From: Actinoallomurus purpureus
Lineage (GTDB): Bacteria > Actinomycetota > Actinomycetes > Streptosporangiales > Streptosporangiaceae
DNA length: 64,000 bases
Reading direction: 5' to 3'
Assembly (NCBI RefSeq): GCF_024055795.1
Contig: NZ_JAMXMY010000008.1
Coordinates: 124,001-188,000, forward strand
The notes below the pieces were generated by a model. The model was not told where the DNA came from. It ran no database searches and saw only the letters and a list, made by a program, of their open reading frames with translations. Positions 17,785 to 27,468 of the stretch are shown here, one piece after another. A program made the translations under genes and the position numbers. Position 1 is the first letter of the stretch. Each line of letters opens with the position of its first letter.

Positions 17785-18471
17785 TCAGCGGTTCTGGGTC
17801 ACCGTGGTGGCGGTCACGCTGCCGTCCTGGCCCGGCGTGCCCTGAACGACGACGGGCGCGCCGGCCTTGAGGTCCTTGACCTTCGCGCTCTTGGTGACGG
17901 AGACCTTCGTGGAACCGGTGGTCTTCACGCGCACGATCCCATTGGCCGTCTGGACGTAGATGACGTCGCCGTCGACGAGCTTGACGGTGCCGGACGTGCC
18001 CGCGCCGCCGGAGGGAGCAGCGCCGGTGCCGGAGCCCGGGGCCGTACCGGGTGCCGCCGGGCGGCCGCCCTGACCGGTGCCGGCACCCTCGCCGGGGACG
18101 CCGCCCTGACCGGAGCCCGCGCCCTCGCCGAATCCGCCGCGCCGGGCGGTTCCCGCTCCGAAGCCGCCGCCCGTACCCTGGCCGCCGGCGCCGGCGGCTC
18201 CGCCGGCTCCGCGGGCGAACGAGGAGAACCCCGCGGGTGCCTGCTTCGCGCCCCAGTGCTTGTCCGCCTGTACGCCGCCGAGGAACCCGGCGACGATGAG
18301 CACCCCGGCACCGAGGAACACGGTGGCCGAGGGGATCCGGCGTTCCTGTCGTGGTTCGGCGGCCGCCAGCTCTTCGGCGAGGTCACCTTCGAACGGTGAG
18401 GTGCGCAGCAGTTCTTCCGACGGCACGTCGTCGAGCGGTGCGTCGCTGCTCTTGCGCCGTGTTCCAGGCAT
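17785..18471 (-). CDS. Gly-rich membrane-anchored protein, last gene of the exporter operon
   Basis: A 228-aa type II membrane protein. An acidic cytoplasmic tail and one membrane segment (ATVFLGAGVLIVAGFLGGV) precede about 75 residues almost entirely Gly, Ala and Pro. A C-terminal small beta domain (GTVKLVDGDVIYVQTANGIV, VSVTKSAKVKDLKAGAPVVV, TATTVTQNR) resembles the OB-like DUF5666 type fold. It starts 18 bp after the permease stop on the same strand, with AGGGAT before ATG 18471, so it belongs to the operon. It may be an accessory subunit of the exporter. Confidence 0.7.
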   Translation of the reverse strand: MPGTRRKSSDAPLDDVPSEELLRTSPFEGDLAEELAAAEPRQERRIPSATVFLGAGVLIVAGFLGGVQADKHWGAKQAPAGFSSFARGAGGAAGAGGQGTGGGFGAGTARRGGFGEGAGSGQGGVPGEGAGTGQGGRPAAPGTAPGSGTGAAPSGGAGTSGTVKLVDGDVIYVQTANGIVRVKTTGSTKVSVTKSAKVKDLKAGAPVVVQGTPGQDGSVTATTVTQNR

Positions 18472-18489: not shown

Positions 18490-19764
18490 CTATTCGTGGC
18501 GAAGTGCTTCGATGGGCCGGAGCTTGGCCGCGCGGTTGGCCGGGTAGCTGCCGAAGAACAGCCCGATCGCGACCGAGACGCCCAGGGCCAGCGCGATCGA
18601 GCTGGGCACGATCACCGGCCGTACTCCCAGGACCGTGAACTGACTGCCGACCACACCCGCGGCGACCCCGAGCAGCCCGCCCAGGAGGCTGAGAACGGTG
18701 GCCTCGACGAGGAACTGGCCGAGGATCGCGCTCTTCGGTGCTCCGATGGCCTTGCGGATGCCGATCTCGCGAGTCCGCTCGGTCACGGTGACGAGCATGA
18801 TGTTGGTGATGCCGATGCCGCCGACCAGGAGGCTGATGGCCGCGACCGCGCCCAGCAGCACGGTGAACGTCCGGCTGCTGCTGCTGATCGCCGACTGCAG
18901 GCTCGCCTGGTTCAGGATCTGGAAGTCGGCGGTGTTGGACCCGGAGATGTCGTGCCGCTGGTTCAGGACGTCGGTCACCTCGGCCTGCGCGGTGTCCACC
19001 ACCTTGGGGGACTTCGCCTGAACCACGATCTGGTTCAGCGCCCCGTAGCCGGTCAGGCTCTGCTGCACGGCCGGCAGCGGCGCGATCGCGACGTCGTCGG
19101 CGTCCTGGAAACCGGACGAGCCCTTGGTCTTCAGGACCCCGACGACCGTGAAGTTCACCCCGCTGACGGTGATCTGCCTGCCCAGCGGGTCCACCGTGCC
19201 GAACAGGTCCTCGGCCACAGTGTTCCCGATGACCGCGACCTTGCGGCCGTTCAGTACGTCGTCGTCGGTGAAGTACGTTCCCCGGGCCACCGGGTCGTTG
19301 GATGCCTCGAAGTAGGCCGGGTAGGTGCCGACGAACTGCTGGATCGCGTGGGCGGTCCCCTCGTACGTCGCGTTCACGGACGAGGAGGTGACCACCGGGG
19401 AGACGCTCTTGACCGAGGGGACGTTCGCCGCGTCGGCCAGGGAGCGAGCGTCCTCGACGGTCAGGCTCTTGGCCTGCGCGCGAGGCCCGGTCTGCTGTGA
19501 CCTCCCGCCGGCGCCCCCACCGCCGAACAGCCGGGCGAGGCCGCCCGCGCCCCCACGGCCGCCCGCGGTCGACGGCATGACGGTCAAGGTGTTGGTGCCG
19601 AGACGTTCGATGTTCTTCTGCACCTGCTGCGACGAGCCGTTCCCGACCGCCACCAGCATGATCACGGCGCCGACGCCGATCAGAATGCCGAGGGTGGTCA
19701 GGCCGCTGCGCAACTTGTTCGCCGCCAGCCCGCGCAGGGCGAACCTGAGTACTTCCCGTGTCAT
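18490..19764 (-). CDS. MacB-type ABC transporter permease
   Basis: A 424-aa FtsX/MacB-family permease. TM1 is near the N-terminus (LTTLGILIGVGAVIMLVAVG), then a large extracytoplasmic MacB-like core domain, then three C-terminal TM segments. The last region contains the family motif REIGIRKAIGA and GGIGITNIMLVTVTERT. Such permeases do not pump across the membrane but transmit ATPase motion to an outer adaptor. A Gly-rich insertion (GGRGGAGGLARLFGGGGAG) sits early in the core domain. Start ATG 19764 overlaps the ATPase stop by 4 bp (ATGA), so translation is coupled. Confidence 0.92.
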   Translation of the reverse strand: MTREVLRFALRGLAANKLRSGLTTLGILIGVGAVIMLVAVGNGSSQQVQKNIERLGTNTLTVMPSTAGGRGGAGGLARLFGGGGAGGRSQQTGPRAQAKSLTVEDARSLADAANVPSVKSVSPVVTSSSVNATYEGTAHAIQQFVGTYPAYFEASNDPVARGTYFTDDDVLNGRKVAVIGNTVAEDLFGTVDPLGRQITVSGVNFTVVGVLKTKGSSGFQDADDVAIAPLPAVQQSLTGYGALNQIVVQAKSPKVVDTAQAEVTDVLNQRHDISGSNTADFQILNQASLQSAISSSSRTFTVLLGAVAAISLLVGGIGITNIMLVTVTERTREIGIRKAIGAPKSAILGQFLVEATVLSLLGGLLGVAAGVVGSQFTVLGVRPVIVPSSIALALGVSVAIGLFFGSYPANRAAKLRPIEALRHE

Positions 19765-20501
19765 CGGTCGTCGGCCCTCAATTCGTCCCCGCCGGACCGG
19801 ATGGCGGGCCGGCCCACGGGCGCAGTGCGCCGGTCCTCGACGATGCGGCCGTCGACCAGGCGGATCACCCGCTTGGCGCGGCGCGCGACGTCGTTCTCAT
19901 GAGTGATCAGCACGATGGTGCGGCCGTCGGCGCTGAGCCGGTCGAGGACGCCCAGCACGTCGGCGGTGGAGCGGGTGTCGAGGTTACCGGTGGGCTCGTC
20001 GGCCAGCAGGAGCGCCGGTGCCGTCACCAGCGCGCGGGCGACGGCGACGCGCTGCTGCTGACCTCCCGACAGTTCGTTCGGCTCGTGGTCGACACGGTCG
20101 GCGAGGCCCACCTGCTCCAGGGCGGCCAGCGCCCGCCGCCTCCGCTCGGCGGCCTTGACACCGCCGTACGCCAGCGGCAGCTCGACGTTGGCCAAGGCGC
20201 TCATCCTCGGAATCAGGTTGAAGGACTGGAACACGAACCCGATGCGCCGGTTACGGAGGATCGCCAGCCGCCGGTCGTCGAGCGCGCCGACGTCCAGACC
20301 GTCGAGGAGGTACCGGCCCCCGGTGGGCACGTCGAGGCAGCCCAGGATGTTCATCAGCGTCGACTTGCCCGAGCCGGACGCACCCATGATCGCCACGTAG
20401 TCGCCCTCGTCGACGGCGAGGCGGACACCGCGCAGCGCGTGCACCGCCGTGTCGCCGTCCCCGTACACCTTGGTCACGTCCTGGACGTCGAGGACGGTCA
20501 T
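19761..20501 (-). CDS. MacB/LolD-type ABC transporter ATP-binding protein
   Basis: A 246-aa ATPase that energises the adjacent permease. It has Walker A GASGSGKST at 40-48, signature LSGGQQQR at about 144-151, Walker B LLLADEPTGNLD and the switch His in LITHEND. It overlaps the adaptor upstream and the permease downstream by 4 bp each (ATGA junctions), which gives near-fixed subunit ratios. Confidence 0.95.
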   Translation of the reverse strand: MTVLDVQDVTKVYGDGDTAVHALRGVRLAVDEGDYVAIMGASGSGKSTLMNILGCLDVPTGGRYLLDGLDVGALDDRRLAILRNRRIGFVFQSFNLIPRMSALANVELPLAYGGVKAAERRRRALAALEQVGLADRVDHEPNELSGGQQQRVAVARALVTAPALLLADEPTGNLDTRSTADVLGVLDRLSADGRTIVLITHENDVARRAKRVIRLVDGRIVEDRRTAPVGRPAIRSGGDELRADDR

Positions 20502-21697
20502 CCCCGGGCTCCGCCACGGGCGCCGCCGATTCCGCTCCCGCCGCCGACGCCGGGGAAGCGGCCCGACGGGAATCCGCCGGTTCCCGTCGTGGCGGTGGAC
20601 GTGACGAGCACCTGGTCGCCTTCCTGGAGGCCTGACGTGATCTCGGTGCCCTGGTCACCCTGGACGCCGGCCTGCACCACCCGGATCGTCTGCCGGCCGC
20701 CCGCCATCACGGTCACCGTGCTGCGGCCGCCGGCGGTCCGGACGGCGGCGGTCGGGACGTACAGCACCTTCTCCGCCTGCGCGGTGGTCACCCGGACTGT
20801 GGCGGTGGCCCCGATGCGGAGCCCGGCGGGCGGGGCGGTGAGCGAGACCGTCACGCCGTACTGCACCACGTTGTTCGAGGTCGTCGCGGTCTGGTCGATC
20901 TCGGTGACCTTGCCGGACGCCTGGGCGTTCCGAACGGCGTCGAAGGTCACGGTCGCCTCTTGGCCCCTCTTGAGCTTGGCGACGTCGGCCTCGGTGAAGT
21001 TCCCGGTCACCGCCAGCCTGGAGGTGTCGGCGATCGTCATGAACCCGCCCCCCGAACTGCTCGCGGAGCTCCCCGATCCGCTGGAACCGGACGAGCCGCC
21101 CGACCCACCGCCCGCCGCGCCGCCGGAGGAACCGCCCGCGCTGCCGGAGCCCGCCGACCCCGATGATCCGCTCGATCCGCCGGTCGAGCCGCTGGAGGAT
21201 CCACCGACGGTGCCGTTGACCGCGACGACGGTGCCGCTGAACGGTGCGGTCAGGTCGGTCCCGTCCAGGGCGCGCTTGGCGCTGTTGTAGGACGCCTTCG
21301 CCTGTACGTAGGACGAATAGCCCGAGGCCGTCGACGTGTCGCCCGCTTCGGCGGCGTCCAGGGCGGCCCGCGCGGCCTCGAGGTCGTCGCGGGCGTTGGC
21401 GTCGTCGACGGTGGCGAGCACCCGGCCCTTCTTGACCTTGTCGCCCACCTGAACGTTGATCTTGTCGACCGTGCCGCTGGTGGTGAAGGAGAGGTCGCGG
21501 GACTTGGCGCTGGCGACCGTGCCGGAGGCCGACACCGAGGCGACGACGGTGCCACGGCTCACCCGGACGATCCGGCCAGGGGACGACGCGCCCGCGTCAT
21601 CATCCAGCGAGAGGTACGCGAACCCGGCACCGCCGGCGATCAGAACGGCCAGAGCGCCGTTGATCAGCACGCCACGGCGACGGAGGAGGGATTTCAC
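20498..21697 (-). CDS. Membrane-fusion (HlyD/MacA-type) adaptor of the ABC exporter
   Basis: A 399-aa periplasmic-adaptor-like protein with an N-terminal membrane anchor (LINGALAVLIAGGAGFAYL). The split biotinyl-lipoyl domain (GTVDKINVQVGDKVKKGRVL and TAPFSGTVVAVNG) and the beta-barrel domains that follow are present. Where Gram-negative adaptors carry a long coiled-coil hairpin, this one has a short helix plus a Ser/Gly run of about 60 residues. GTG 21697 is the most plausible start; no good Shine-Dalgarno is visible. It is the first gene of the exporter operon. CCTGA repeats lie 34-60 bp upstream of the start. Confidence 0.88.
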   Translation of the reverse strand: MKSLLRRRGVLINGALAVLIAGGAGFAYLSLDDDAGASSPGRIVRVSRGTVVASVSASGTVASAKSRDLSFTTSGTVDKINVQVGDKVKKGRVLATVDDANARDDLEAARAALDAAEAGDTSTASGYSSYVQAKASYNSAKRALDGTDLTAPFSGTVVAVNGTVGGSSSGSTGGSSGSSGSAGSGSAGGSSGGAAGGGSGGSSGSSGSGSSASSSGGGFMTIADTSRLAVTGNFTEADVAKLKRGQEATVTFDAVRNAQASGKVTEIDQTATTSNNVVQYGVTVSLTAPPAGLRIGATATVRVTTAQAEKVLYVPTAAVRTAGGRSTVTVMAGGRQTIRVVQAGVQGDQGTEITSGLQEGDQVLVTSTATTGTGGFPSGRFPGVGGGSGIGGARGGARG

Positions 21698-21730
21698 GCG
21701 CCACAGCGTCTCGGAGGCTGCTTGGGCGAA

Positions 21731-21757
21731 CCTGATCCGACCCTGAAAGGTTCCTGT
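21731..21757. promoter_or_regulatory. CCTGA direct repeats, 11-bp phasing, upstream of the exporter operon
   Basis: CCTGA at 21731, CCTGA at 21742 and CCTGT at 21753 are spaced exactly 11 bp, the phasing used by OmpR-family response regulators. The same motif occurs upstream of the nearby response regulator and HtrA genes. Confidence 0.65.
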
Positions 21758-21887
21758 GAGATCGTGCGGTCGTCGCGTGGGCACCGAGGCCACGACCAGG
21801 TGTCCACCGTCCTCGGAGAGGCCGCCTTCAGCGAACTTTGAGGATGGACTCGGCTTCCCGTGACCTTCGCCCGCCAGAATCCGACGC

Positions 21888-23339
21888 GTGAACCGGCCGA
21901 CCATGCGCGATCTCCGGAGACCACCGTGGCTCACCGCCGGTGCGGTGGTCATGCTCGCGACCGGGGTGGTGGCCGTCGGCGACTCCTCGGCGAGCGCCAC
22001 GGCGTACGCCCTCGTGCGACGCGGAACCGTGACGGCGACCGCGGGCGCCGCGGGGGCCGTCCGGAGCGCGGACACCCGCGAGCTCGTCTTCGGCACCTCG
22101 GGGACGGTGAAAGAGGTCGAGGTCGCGCCGGGCGCCCGGGTACGCGCCGGCCAGATCCTCGCGCGTCTCGACGACACCGCGGCCCGGGACCAGGTGGAGG
22201 TCGCCAGGGCCGCGCTCACGGCGGCTCAGGACACGTACGCCAACGCGCTGGGGGGCGTGTGCACGGGCTCCGGCGGGGCGGGTGCGGGCGGCGGCGCGGC
22301 GAGCGGGACGGGGGGCGGCACCGGAAACGCCGGTGCGGGCGGTGGCGGGAGTGCGGGCGGAACGGCGGTCCAGCCGGCCGGTTTCCACCGGCGTCCTCGG
22401 CCGACGCGGACGCCCACCGCGACCCCCACCAGCCCCTCACCCACCTCCACGCCGACTCCGACGCCGACGCCGACGCCGACCTCGCCGCGGCCGACCCCGA
22501 CCGTCCCCACGCCCACGCCCACGCACACCCCGCGGCCGACCGGGCACCCCACTCCGACCGGGCATCCCAAGCCCAGCGGTCACCCGAAGCCGAGCGGCCA
22601 TCCGAGGCCCGGCGGCAAGCCAGGCTCGGGCGGTGGCCGTCCCGGCGGGGGTTCGGGTGGCGGAGGCGGCTGCCAGGCGGGTGCGGTCGAGCAGGCCGCC
22701 GCGAAGGTCACCCAGGCGGAGGTGGACGTCCGGCATGCCGAGCGGACGCTCTCCGCGACCACTCTCCGGGCGCCCATGGCCGGCACCGTGCTGTCGATCG
22801 CGGGGACGGCGGGCGCCCCGGTCGGCGCGGGCAACGGCGGCTTCATCACGCTCGGCGATCTGGCCGACCTCCAGGTACGGGCCCTGTTCTCGCTCGGTGA
22901 CGCGGACCGGCTCAAGGTCGGCCAACGGGCGGCGATCGGACTCGGGATGTCGGCGGACGGACGCTACACCGGCACCGTCACCGGCATCGACCCGGCGGCC
23001 ACCACGAGCGGCAACCTCGCTCGGGTCGGCGTGAACATCTCCCTCGACGACTCCCCGGCCGGAGTGCTGGTCGGCATGAGCGCGACCGCCGAGGTCGTGA
23101 CCGCGCAGGCGCAGAGTGCGCTGTACGTGCCCGCCGGTGCGGTGCGGTCCGAGCCCGACGGCACGGCGACCGTGCTCGTACGGCACGACGGTCGGACCAC
23201 GGCCCGGACGGTACGCCTCGGCGTGCGGAGCGACCGGTACGTGGCGGTCACCGGCGGTCTGTCCTCGGGTGACCACGTGGTGATGCCCACGGGCACCGGC
23301 TCGGACGGTTTTCCGGACGGCGCCTTCCCCGGCGCCTGA
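21888..23339 (+). CDS. Second membrane-fusion adaptor with Thr-Pro linker, divergent orphan
   Basis: A 483-aa HlyD-family adaptor with a signal anchor (WLTAGAVVMLATGVVAVG). It has lipoyl halves (GTSGTVKEVEVAPGARVRAG and LRAPMAGTVLSIAGTAGAP) and a barrel domain like that of the first adaptor. Between the lipoyl halves is an insert of about 130 residues made of Gly-rich, Thr-Pro and His-Pro repeats instead of a helical hairpin. No ABC or RND partner follows it on this strand, so it may share the divergent exporter. Start is GTG 21888 or ATG 21903; neither has a clear Shine-Dalgarno sequence. Confidence 0.82.
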   Translation: MNRPTMRDLRRPPWLTAGAVVMLATGVVAVGDSSASATAYALVRRGTVTATAGAAGAVRSADTRELVFGTSGTVKEVEVAPGARVRAGQILARLDDTAARDQVEVARAALTAAQDTYANALGGVCTGSGGAGAGGGAASGTGGGTGNAGAGGGGSAGGTAVQPAGFHRRPRPTRTPTATPTSPSPTSTPTPTPTPTPTSPRPTPTVPTPTPTHTPRPTGHPTPTGHPKPSGHPKPSGHPRPGGKPGSGGGRPGGGSGGGGGCQAGAVEQAAAKVTQAEVDVRHAERTLSATTLRAPMAGTVLSIAGTAGAPVGAGNGGFITLGDLADLQVRALFSLGDADRLKVGQRAAIGLGMSADGRYTGTVTGIDPAATTSGNLARVGVNISLDDSPAGVLVGMSATAEVVTAQAQSALYVPAGAVRSEPDGTATVLVRHDGRTTARTVRLGVRSDRYVAVTGGLSSGDHVVMPTGTGSDGFPDGAFPGA

Positions 23340-23575
23340 CGGCCTTCCGGTCTCCCGGCGGTGGCCGCGACCGCTCCACGAGCGGCGGGCTCCCGGACGA
23401 CGAGTGTTCCGTCCTCCCGTTGGTGCGTCCGGTACCGGACGGTCTGCGGGTGGACGCACAGGCATACGGCCGGCGGCCTGCCCGGAGACGCCGGCGGCCC
23501 GGCCGAGACGGTCCCTGGTTCAGGACCTCTCCGCCGGGCCGGACGGCACCCCCGCCGTGGCGTCCGCCGCTCGGG

Positions 23576-25105
<1,530 letters not shown>

Positions 25106-25160
25106 CTCTTCGTCCCCCAAAGTCCGTACTTTGTCTGACGCTTTGAGGATGGCCACCCGG

Positions 25161-25210
25161 CCTTGAATGCTCCTGAGCCCAGCCTGAGAGTTGTCCCAAT
25201 AAGGCCCTGA
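25161..25210. promoter_or_regulatory. CCTGA direct repeats upstream of the HtrA gene
   Basis: CCTTGA (25161), CCTGA (25172) and CCTGAGAG (25183) are 11 bp apart, and another CCTGA follows at 25206. They lie 56-105 bp upstream of the htrA start. A 12-mer CTTTGAGGATGG at 25141-25152 also occurs at 21836-21847 in the adaptor intergenic region. Confidence 0.65.
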
Positions 25211-25246
25211 TAAGAGCCGAACGCCGCAGGGCGGGAAGCCCGGCCG

Positions 25247-26722
25247 TTACACGCGGACGGCCTCCCCCGCGTCCGCGTCGATCGCGTCGGGGTCCAGCGG
25301 AAGGGTGATCAGGAAGGTGGCACCCTCCCCGGGAGCCGTCTCCACCTCCACCATGCCGCCGTGCGCGTGCACCAGCCCGGCGACGATCGCCAGCCCGAGG
25401 CCGGTGCCGCCGCGGCTGCGCGCGGGATCGGCGCGGTAGAACCGCTCGAAGACCCGCTCCGCCTCCTCATGGGGCATGCCCGGCCCCTGGTCGGCGACCT
25501 CGAGCACGGCCGCCGGGGACTCGCCCAACCGTCCGGAGCGCATGATGACGTCGACCGGGGTGCCGGCCGGAGTGTGCTGCAGCGCGTTGGTCAACAGGTT
25601 GCGGATGACCTGCCGGAGACGCAGTTCGTCACCGGTGACGATGAACGCCGAGCCGCCGCGCACCGAAAGCGTGATCTTCCGGTCGCCGTCGAGGACGCGG
25701 GCGTCGTGCACGGCGTCGGCGGCCAGCGCGAGCAGGTCGACAGGGCGCATGTCGAGGGGGCGCTGCTGGTCGAGCCGGGCCAGGAGCAGCAGGTCGTCGA
25801 CGAGCGCGCCCATCCGGACGGCCTCGTTCTCCACCCGCTCGATGAGCCGGTCGAGTTCGGCGCGGTCGACGTCGTCGCGCTGCCGGTAGTACTCCGCGAA
25901 TCCCCTGATCACGCTCAGCGGCGTGCGCAGTTCGTGGCTGGCGTCGGCGACGAAGCGGCGCATCCGCTCCTCCGACTCACGGGCGGTCGCCTCGGACCGC
26001 GCCTGCGCGTGGAAGGCCGTCTCGATCTGGGCGAGCATGCCGTTGAGCGCGTCGCCCAGGCGGCCGACCTCCGTCCGCGGGTCGGCGTCGGGGACCCGGC
26101 GCGACAGGTCACCCGTCGCGATCGCGGCCGCCGTGTGCTCGATCTGTTCGAGGGACCGCAGGCTGGCGCGCACGATGGCGATGCCGAGCCCGGCGACGAG
26201 GACGACGGCGACGCTGCCGACGATCAGCTCGACGCCCACGAGCTTGCCGACGGTGTGCTGGACGTCGGTCAGGTCACTGCCCGCGACGATGTAGCCGTCA
26301 CCGACCGGCTCGATGTACACCCGCCACCGGGCCTCGCCGCTGACCGCGCCGACCGTCACCGGCCTCTGGGCATGCTCGTCGAGCCAGACGGGGTCGTCCG
26401 GCACGCTGGGGTCGGGCTGGACGACCCCCCAGGACGACACACCGGTGCTCTTGCGGAGCTTGCCCTGAGCGTCGCGCACCTGGACGACGTACTGGCCGGC
26501 CTGACCGGGCAGAGGCTTTCCGGGTACGGCAAGGGACCGTTCCGCCCGGTGGACCACGTCCCGGAGCTGGCCGTCGGTCCGCTGCACCAGGTAGTAACGC
26601 ATCATCGAGACGCTGGCCACGCCGACCACGATCAGGGCCAGGGTGACGAGAGTCAGCACCGCGGTGATGAGCTTGATCCGCAGCGGGGTCCGGGCGGACA
26701 GGCGCCGCGCCCAGGCGGCCAT
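25247..26722 (-). CDS. Membrane sensor histidine kinase
   Basis: A 491-aa sensor kinase. TM1 at about 17-40 and TM2 at about 162-184 flank an extracytoplasmic domain of about 120 residues. HAMP, HisKA with phospho-acceptor His263 (DASHELRTPLSVIRG), and HATPase_c with N box (QVIRNLLTNALQHTP), G1 (VADQGPGMP) and G2 (GGTGLGLAIV) follow. The ATG at 26722 overlaps the regulator stop by 1 bp (TGATG), so the pair is coupled. It resembles TrcS/MprB-type kinases of mycobacteria. The HtrA neighbour suggests it senses envelope stress. Confidence 0.94.
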   Translation of the reverse strand: MAAWARRLSARTPLRIKLITAVLTLVTLALIVVGVASVSMMRYYLVQRTDGQLRDVVHRAERSLAVPGKPLPGQAGQYVVQVRDAQGKLRKSTGVSSWGVVQPDPSVPDDPVWLDEHAQRPVTVGAVSGEARWRVYIEPVGDGYIVAGSDLTDVQHTVGKLVGVELIVGSVAVVLVAGLGIAIVRASLRSLEQIEHTAAAIATGDLSRRVPDADPRTEVGRLGDALNGMLAQIETAFHAQARSEATARESEERMRRFVADASHELRTPLSVIRGFAEYYRQRDDVDRAELDRLIERVENEAVRMGALVDDLLLLARLDQQRPLDMRPVDLLALAADAVHDARVLDGDRKITLSVRGGSAFIVTGDELRLRQVIRNLLTNALQHTPAGTPVDVIMRSGRLGESPAAVLEVADQGPGMPHEEAERVFERFYRADPARSRGGTGLGLAIVAGLVHAHGGMVEVETAPGEGATFLITLPLDPDAIDADAGEAVRV

Positions 26723-27417
26723 CAACGCTCCGGCGGCAGGCGCAGCACGTAACCGACCCCGCGCAACGTGTGGATCAGGCGGGGGCCGAGCTTGTCGAGC
26801 TTGCGGCGCAGCACCGAGACGTACGACTCGACGATGCCCGTGTCGCCGCGGAAGTCGTAGTCCCAGACGTGGTCGAGGATCTGCGCCTTGGACAGCACGC
26901 GGTTGGCGTTGGTCATGAAGTAGCGGAGCAGCTTGAACTCGGTGGGCGACAGCTGGATCGGCTTACCCGACCGCCAGACCTCGTGGCTCTCCTCGTCCAG
27001 TTCGAGGTCGGCGAAGCTCAGCCGGGGCGGGGGCTCCGCCGGGCCGCCCTGGGCGCGGCGCAACACGGCGCGGATGCGCGCGATGACCTCCTCGAGGCTG
27101 AACGGCTTGGTGACGTAGTCGTCCCCGCCCAGCGTCAGCCCACGGATCTTGTCCTGGGTGGCGTCCCGCGCGGTCAGGAACAGCACCGGAATGTGCGCCC
27201 CGCCGCCGCGCAGCCGGCGGATGACGTCGAAACCGTCCATGTCGGGCAGCATGACGTCCAGCACGATCAGGTCGGGCCGGCGCTGCAGGGCGACCTGGAC
27301 GGCCTCGCTGCCGCCGGTCGCCGTCGCCACCTCGAATCCCGCGTAGCGCAGACTGCCGGACAGCAGCTCCAGGATGTTGGGTTCGTCTTCGACCACGAGG
27401 AGTCGCGCTTCACTCAC
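26722..27417 (-). CDS. OmpR-family response regulator
   Basis: A 231-aa regulator. The receiver domain has phospho-acceptor Asp54 (IVLDVMLPDMDG) and conserved Lys near 103 (YVTKPF). The C-terminal winged helix contains LSPTEFKLLRYFMTNANRVLS and ESYVSVLRRKLD. By sequence it looks closer to TrcR/PhoP than to MprA, although the neighbourhood recalls mprAB-pepD. The likely binding motif is the CCTGA direct repeat found at its own promoter and at two others nearby. Confidence 0.95.
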   Translation of the reverse strand: MSEARLLVVEDEPNILELLSGSLRYAGFEVATATGGSEAVQVALQRRPDLIVLDVMLPDMDGFDVIRRLRGGGAHIPVLFLTARDATQDKIRGLTLGGDDYVTKPFSLEEVIARIRAVLRRAQGGPAEPPPRLSFADLELDEESHEVWRSGKPIQLSPTEFKLLRYFMTNANRVLSKAQILDHVWDYDFRGDTGIVESYVSVLRRKLDKLGPRLIHTLRGVGYVLRLPPER

Positions 27418-27449
27418 CCCTCCATAGTGACCTGCGGAGTTGAGGACTA

Positions 27450-27468
27450 CCTGAAGGGGCCCTGAGAG
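27450..27468. promoter_or_regulatory. CCTGA direct repeat upstream of the response regulator
   Basis: CCTGA (27450-27454), six bases, CCTGAGAG (27461-27468): the same 11-bp-phased arrangement as at the HtrA and exporter promoters. It lies 33-51 bp upstream of the regulator start and fits autoregulation. Confidence 0.65.

Follow-up and report, generated by a model that had tools for sequence, protein, structure and literature searches.

A predicted PhoP-subfamily regulon joining an HtrA-type protease and a MacB-type exporter in Actinoallomurus

In a 64,000-bp stretch of the Actinoallomurus purpureus genome (contig NZ_JAMXMY010000008.1, positions 124,001 to 188,000; hereafter the window), a two-component system of the PhoP subfamily, composed of a sensor kinase (25247-26725) and a response regulator (26722-27417), is predicted to control a small local regulon which comprises its own genes, the adjacent htrA gene, the operon of a MacB-type exporter and a second adaptor gene, MFP2; the probability of this reading is put at about 0.8. 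What carries it is directly observed, namely arrays of short direct repeats with an 11-bp period, their conservation and orientation, the gene neighbourhood and the subfamily of the regulator. An earlier sequence-only reading of the window had proposed that three promoters form one regulon through common sites in 11-bp phase; the motifs it quoted are present at their coordinates, and the predicted regulon now extends to a fourth promoter, that of MFP2, while the in-phase degenerate units TCAAC, CAAGG and CAAGC (read by eye) are likewise additions to it. The features are as follows, genes having been called with a crude codon-usage finder which leaves start codons uncertain:

26722..27417, minus strand: response regulator, OmpR/PhoB family, PhoP subfamily, clade RR1 (Pfam Response_reg and Trans_reg_C; best solved match PhoP; tree)
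25247..26725, minus strand: sensor histidine kinase (Pfam HAMP, HisKA, HATPase_c), overlapping the regulator gene
27439..27465, minus strand: predicted operator array, regulator promoter (TCAGG 27465-27461, TCAGG 27454-27450, TCAAC 27443-27439; 11-bp phase)
25161..25187, minus strand: predicted operator array, HtrA promoter (TCAGG 25187-25183, TCAGG 25176-25172, CAAGG 25165-25161)
21720..21757, minus strand: predicted operator array of four units, exporter promoter (ACAGG 21757-21753, TCAGG 21746-21742, TCAGG 21735-21731, CAAGC 21724-21720)
21828..21854, plus strand: fourth, degenerate array (predicted operator), upstream of MFP2 (TCAGC 21828, TGAGG 21839, TCGGC 21850)
23576..25105, minus strand: HtrA/PepD-like serine protease with PDZ domain (Trypsin_2 and PDZ)
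20498..21697, minus strand: MFP1, HlyD/MacA-type adaptor, first gene of the exporter operon (TIGR01730 above cut-off)
19761..20501, minus strand: ATP-binding cassette (ABC) ATPase, MacB/LolD type (ABC_tran; top NCBIfam match MacB, below its cut-off)
18490..19764, minus strand: MacB-type permease (MacB_PCD and FtsX)
21888..23339, plus strand: MFP2, second HlyD-type adaptor, divergent from MFP1 (TIGR01730 above cut-off; beside MFP1 in relatives)
17785..18471, minus strand: U18, behind the exporter permease (no Pfam or NCBIfam match; synteny)

The regulator, HtrA and MFP1 genes lie on the minus strand, and the CCTGA dimers found upstream of them on the plus strand read TCAGG-N6-TCAGG on the coding strand. 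Exact CCTGA-N6-CCTGA occurs three times in the window, always on the plus strand and upstream of these three genes, against a mean of 0.15 expected on both strands (first-order Markov simulation, 60 runs, maximum 2); when all spacings from N0 to N20 are counted, CCTGA pairs are found at N6 (3), N10 (1) and N18 (1) and at no other, and among TCAGG pairs on the plus strand N13 alone has a count of 2. Dimers with up to two mismatches number 65 against 60.2 expected, which is the chance level, so that the signal resides in the exact dimers. An additional TCAGG at the HtrA promoter (25210-25206, minus strand) is off the 11-bp phase. The nearest repeat base is 32 bp from the chosen start of the regulator gene, 66 bp from that of HtrA (a start reading METHD, conserved among relatives) and 33 bp from that of MFP1; the range given in the sequence-only reading was about 35-105 bp. 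The starts proposed by the gene finder lie further in and give distances of 53 bp for the regulator, 60 bp for the adaptor and more than 150 bp for HtrA.

Conservation within the genus was assessed on eight loci from seven other Actinoallomurus genomes, in each of which the best copy of the kinase shares 72-85% identity with that of the window. As far as the contigs reach, the gene order is kept: regulator, kinase, HtrA, then MFP2 divergent from MFP1-ABC-permease-U18. Exact dimers are present at the orthologous promoters of the regulator in 6/7 cases (one more being cut by a contig end), of HtrA in 4/7, of MFP1 in 6/6 and of MFP2 in 4/6, and the exceptions carry near-matches: TCAGA at the regulator promoter of L088; at HtrA, TCAGC in place of one half-site in L081 and L086 and of both in L082; and, as second half-site of MFP2 in L081 and L082, the same TGAGG as in the window. 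When the whole upstream regions are aligned (8 rows for the regulator, 8 for HtrA, 7 for MFP1 and 7 for MFP2, the window included), half-site identity to the window is 0.99, 0.94, 1.00 and 0.83, respectively, whereas that of the 6-bp spacers is 0.55, 0.62, 0.58 and 0.72 and that of the remaining upstream DNA 0.56-0.60. The spacers serve as an internal control, since the half-sites are kept while the spacers drift; the promoter alignment in relatives suggested in the sequence-only reading thus bears the motif out (half-sites 0.83-1.00, spacers 0.55-0.72). By eye, the arrays extend to three or four in-phase units in the genus.

By sequence, the regulator belongs to the mycobacterial PhoP subfamily: its best solved match is Mycobacterium tuberculosis PhoP (331 bits), the first chain other than PhoP being PrrA (192 bits), and in a tree of 53 regulators it falls in clade RR1 (100/99), inside a 45-row PhoP subfamily (96/93; midpoint root) which also contains clade RR2 (95/85). 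Two PhoP rows taken from mycobacterial-looking genomes likewise fall within this subfamily, and their recognition helix matches that of the solved PhoP residue for residue. From the gene order, kinship with mprA-mprB-pepD had been suggested at the outset, and MprA, MprB and PepD are names which we take, likewise from gene order, to apply to the HtrA-linked locus of the mycobacterial-looking genomes. For regulator and kinase this kinship is rejected, because both are far closer to the PhoPR-type pair of the two genomes (65-68% and 49-50% identity, respectively) than to the HtrA-linked, MprAB-like pair of the same genomes (46-48% and 30-34%); the protease alone is PepD-like, with 48-50% identity to the kinase-linked HtrA of these genomes against 40-41% to a second HtrA there. 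As for DNA recognition, the report on M. tuberculosis PhoP (PMC4832192) describes binding as a tandem dimer to direct repeats of 7 bp set strictly 4 bp apart, that is, with an 11-bp period, and includes trials with three- and four-motif DNA; the proposal that the phasing suits an OmpR/PhoB-family regulator agrees with a PhoP-subfamily protein being encoded in the window. Of the six base-contacting residues (N212, V213, E215, S216, Y217, Y220), E, S and Y are kept while the others are changed (N212G, V213I, Y220V), a set of changes which would fit the altered half-site (TCAGG against TCACAGC, CAG being shared) and may be its cause.

Outside the genus, the kinase was used to scan named genomes, yielding 78 loci from the best 80 of 245 matching stretches; these include close relatives and are not independent. 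A close exporter permease (>60% identity) is present in 36/78 loci, all within the 57 loci longer than 18 kb, and HtrA in 9/78. In exporter-bearing Streptosporangiaceae loci the usual order is RR1-HK1, then MFP2 divergent from MFP1-ABC-permease-U18, then RR2, mostly followed by HK2; in another arrangement, exemplified by Nonomuraea, RR2 comes directly after HK1. The arrays were sought in 180-base upstream regions as three units at a fixed period, with a half-site profile built on 30 strings of Actinoallomurus, of which 6 come from promoters of PspC-type genes (discussed below), and with a threshold taken from 853 control upstreams of other genera (their 99th percentile); upstreams shorter than 150 bases were skipped, by which no RR1, RR2, HtrA, MFP1 or MFP2 row was lost, and the RR1 and RR2 sets were divided by 75% identity, not by the tree. 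At 11 bp, the test is passed outside the genus by 30/39 MFP1 and 17/29 MFP2 upstreams, by 24/63 of the RR2 set, 10/59 of the RR1 set and 2/4 HtrA, against 0/40 ABC, 0/35 permease and 2/96 kinase upstreams as controls; at periods 8, 9, 10, 12, 13 and 14 the counts of MFP1, MFP2, RR1 and RR2 are 0-5 each. Within the genus, other periods give 2/4 MFP1 at period 10 and, at period 14, 2/4 MFP1 and 1/6 RR1.

The high counts for MFP1 and MFP2 indicate that the exporter is the widespread core of the regulon. The exporter link, in which the sequence-only reading saw the novelty, is indeed present, but the emphasis has to be reversed, the exporter link being widespread and the HtrA link patchy. An RR1-clade regulator adjoining HtrA, with arrays at both promoters, is found in Actinomadura parmotrematis (L182) and in one further genome (G241; L090, L319). 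HtrA as an old member of the regulon was considered and set aside, since outside the genus arrays occur at few HtrA loci; HtrA is apparently a patchy, later, local recruit. Two side observations may be added. In the RR1 promoters of several Streptosporangiaceae loci (L163, L149, L178), CTTAAC- or CTTAGG-like units at about 11-bp phase replace TCAGG (by eye) and may be the RR1 operator there; and a contig labelled as a Spirochaetaceae metagenome-assembled genome (L168) has a regulator-kinase pair of actinobacterial type and is probably mis-binned, because its regulator groups with the actinobacterial rows of the tree.

Repeats of this kind might also arise by chance or through base composition in GC-rich promoters, an explanation which would account for the chance-level count of two-mismatch dimers and for the exact dimers found inside genes (see below), but which is rendered very improbable by the 0.15 dimers expected in the window, the conservation of half-sites over spacers, the specificity for the 11-bp period and the behaviour of the negative-control genes. 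In the whole window genome (9.25 Mb, 52 contigs), 23 exact dimers are found against 5 for the reversed pattern; for 7/23 a predicted start follows in sense orientation within 150 bp, or for 8/23 with the METHD start for HtrA, and 6/23 fall inside predicted genes. The genome scan proposed in the sequence-only reading thus yields the excess, and association with starts for a minority of sites; a dimer by itself does not establish a promoter, and conservation must decide. A profile search of the same genome gave six sites with E<0.1, four being the window promoters and two preceding PspC-type genes, followed by two sites at E 0.54; it scored 150 of 3877 first-look candidates with a model (R1) in which 8/32 rows come from PspC promoters, and its six top sites had been among the training rows. 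Two dimers elsewhere may be recorded. TCAGG-N6-TCAGG precedes, by 22 bp, the gene of a conserved membrane protein, which is divergent from a further two-component system (L011:3547-3562, G000:C9:21146; L137); this is seen also in A. soli (G296). An exact dimer likewise precedes, by 131 bp, the gene of a membrane protein with molybdopterin-type genes next to it (L027:3502-3517, G000:C51:300701), where the gene order seems to resemble that of the Streptomyces sepX region.

Several observations weigh against a local regulon read by the neighbouring regulator. Besides the intragenic dimers just mentioned, 3/7 HtrA and 2/6 MFP2 promoters in the genus are without an exact dimer, and inspection of the four promoters by eye revealed no common -10 element. 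Outside the genus, 49/59 RR1-set upstreams fail the array test, so that the autoregulatory site is not universal in the clade, and two high scores were obtained among the 22 HtrA loci of other genera that were examined out of 30 fetched, one at the linked locus of G241 (L319) and one at an unlinked locus (L307). To the same side belongs the distribution of TCAGG pairs at PspC-type genes, for which the exact pair is found in 4/9 genomes without a close RR1 and in 1/21 with it (30 loci, 35 genomes), 'without a close RR1' meaning no kinase match at 1e-130 and including one genome (G131) with a match at 8e-124 in another scan.

Such pairs precede two PspC-type genes in the window genome (L013:3529-3555, L020:3553-3568) and PspC-type genes in relatives; in five relatives fetched they are likewise present, and the dimers are in sense orientation, in several cases about 46 bp from the start. 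The PspC element is built of CAGGG repeats with an 11-bp period, behind which comes a block resembling CCCGATG or CCCGGATGG; by eye, the four window promoters are without this signature. The element recurs across many genera (L104, L105, L118, L119, L128, L135, L265-L268 and some of L273-L302); a similar element precedes a small membrane gene (L270, L271), and at L020 the PspC gene is divergent from the genes of a PspC-fused protein and of a NarL-like regulator. Since genomes lacking a close RR1 have the pairs more often, another factor can use TCAGG-pair sequences. PspC genes were accordingly set aside as members of the regulon, having their own signature, and their pairs probably belong to another regulator, although PspC strings remain in the half-site profile (6/30) and in model R1 (8/32). 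It follows that the window arrays themselves might be read by a regulator encoded elsewhere, for instance one acting on PspC genes, the two-component system being a neighbour and a target; the occurrence of TCAGG-N6-TCAGG upstream of PspC genes in Actinoallomurus and the 4/9 against 1/21 distribution in other genera speak for this, but we consider it unlikely, given the absence of the PspC signature from the window promoters and the fact that arrays at the promoters of the regulator itself and of its neighbours, the 11-bp period and the PhoP subfamily all favour the local regulator.

The local regulator has, in turn, a close paralog in sister genera. A query with RR2 in eight Actinoallomurus genomes returned RR1 first, at 73-74%, and all others at 66% or less, so that no RR2 was found in these drafts, one of which is 87% and two of which are 95% complete, and drafts can hide a gene. 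With no RR2 found in the genus, the window RR1 is the sole close PhoP-type candidate and the likely reader of the arrays. A tentative account of this distribution, which refines the regulon proposed here and does not oppose it, is a regulator exchange: outside the lineage RR2 would read the exporter arrays, while Actinoallomurus would have lost RR2-HK2, RR1 having taken over its operators and HtrA having joined. Beyond the missing RR2, the exchange is favoured by the position of RR2 behind the exporter in many Streptosporangiaceae loci, by arrays before 24/63 RR2-set against 10/59 RR1-set genes, and by the PhoP-like helix that RR2 mostly carries (NVVESYVSYLR or GVVESYVSYLR). On the other side, the arrays are possibly read by both regulators, Rhizohabitans carrying RR1 and RR2 together with an array at the RR1 promoter; the contact positions of RR1 are near-identical inside and outside the genus, so that no shift of specificity is visible at the exchange; and the two sets compared were split by identity rather than by the tree. 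We hold the exchange at less than even confidence because of this possible double reading elsewhere and because draft genomes may hide a gene. Held just as loosely is the further suggestion that a paralog with the same operators on its own promoter recruited a PepD-like protease, giving a proteolysis-export unit similar to MprAB-PepD in its working and derived from PhoPR.

As to how the predicted regulon might work, we infer from the sequence that the kinase would sense an envelope or secretion disturbance and phosphorylate the regulator, which in this form would bind the array as a dimer, or a longer chain, arranged head to tail in the manner of PhoP, and would most likely activate transcription, since 32-66 bp separate the arrays from the chosen starts downstream of them. 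The result would be more regulator, more of a quality-control protease and more of an exporter for a membrane or cell-wall substrate, protease and exporter possibly cooperating under stress.

Among the titles and abstract openings listed in searches of the open-licence literature, none describes this regulon; the parts are of known kinds, and, judged by these listings, their combination and lineage history look new. Most of what is known about the PhoP subfamily comes from a pathogen, and here the subfamily is found in a lineage from soil whose local regulon is compact and whose predicted operators are clear. Three of the six base-contacting residues differ naturally, and RR2 is present in sister genera but was not found in Actinoallomurus; this makes both the code between recognition helix and half-site and the exchange of operators between paralogs directly testable. 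A first lead is also obtained on the role of an orphan MacB-type exporter and of U18, seemingly co-regulated with envelope protein quality control; U18 follows the exporter permease in many Streptosporangiaceae loci, accompanies the exporter across many genera and is a candidate partner of the exporter.

Compared with known systems, the exporter resembles MacAB in having a MacA-type adaptor and a MacB-type ATPase and permease (by Pfam and NCBIfam, a MacB periplasmic core with an FtsX permease, an HlyD/MacA adaptor and an ABC ATPase), whereas ATPase and permease are here separate genes, there are two adaptors and an extra gene without family (U18), and the proteins fall short of the MacA and MacB equivalog cut-offs of NCBIfam. 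To our knowledge no outer-membrane duct is to be expected in an actinomycete, and 'tripartite' is a loose term for this exporter. M. tuberculosis PhoPR provides the closest solved regulator, a tree clade shared with the two mycobacterial-looking PhoP rows, 11-bp-phased direct repeats and partner kinases 49-50% identical; it differs in the half-site (TCACAGC there, TCAGG here), in the contact residues (N212/V213/Y220 there, G/I/V here) and in the putative targets, in the window a protease together with a MacB-type exporter. With MprAB-PepD of mycobacteria and MprAB-HtrA of Corynebacterium glutamicum, the window shares the order regulator-kinase-HtrA and a protease closest to the kinase-linked HtrA, while its regulator and kinase belong to a different pair (identities of 46-48% and 30-34% to the HtrA-linked one). 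For C. glutamicum MprAB, control of htrA and autoregulation are reported in PMC12113857, as is an MprA motif, TKTTAAGAAM, different from TCAGG. Finally, CssRS and CutRS, the latter a secretion-stress system of Streptomyces like the former, are similar by published description, being two-component systems beside or controlling HtrA-type proteases (PMC3498368, PMC12802291); the CutR site described there, TAWATAAA, is unlike TCAGG, for which reason CutR was rejected as reader of the arrays, and CutS needs two sensor cysteines, whereas the window kinase has no cysteine at all.

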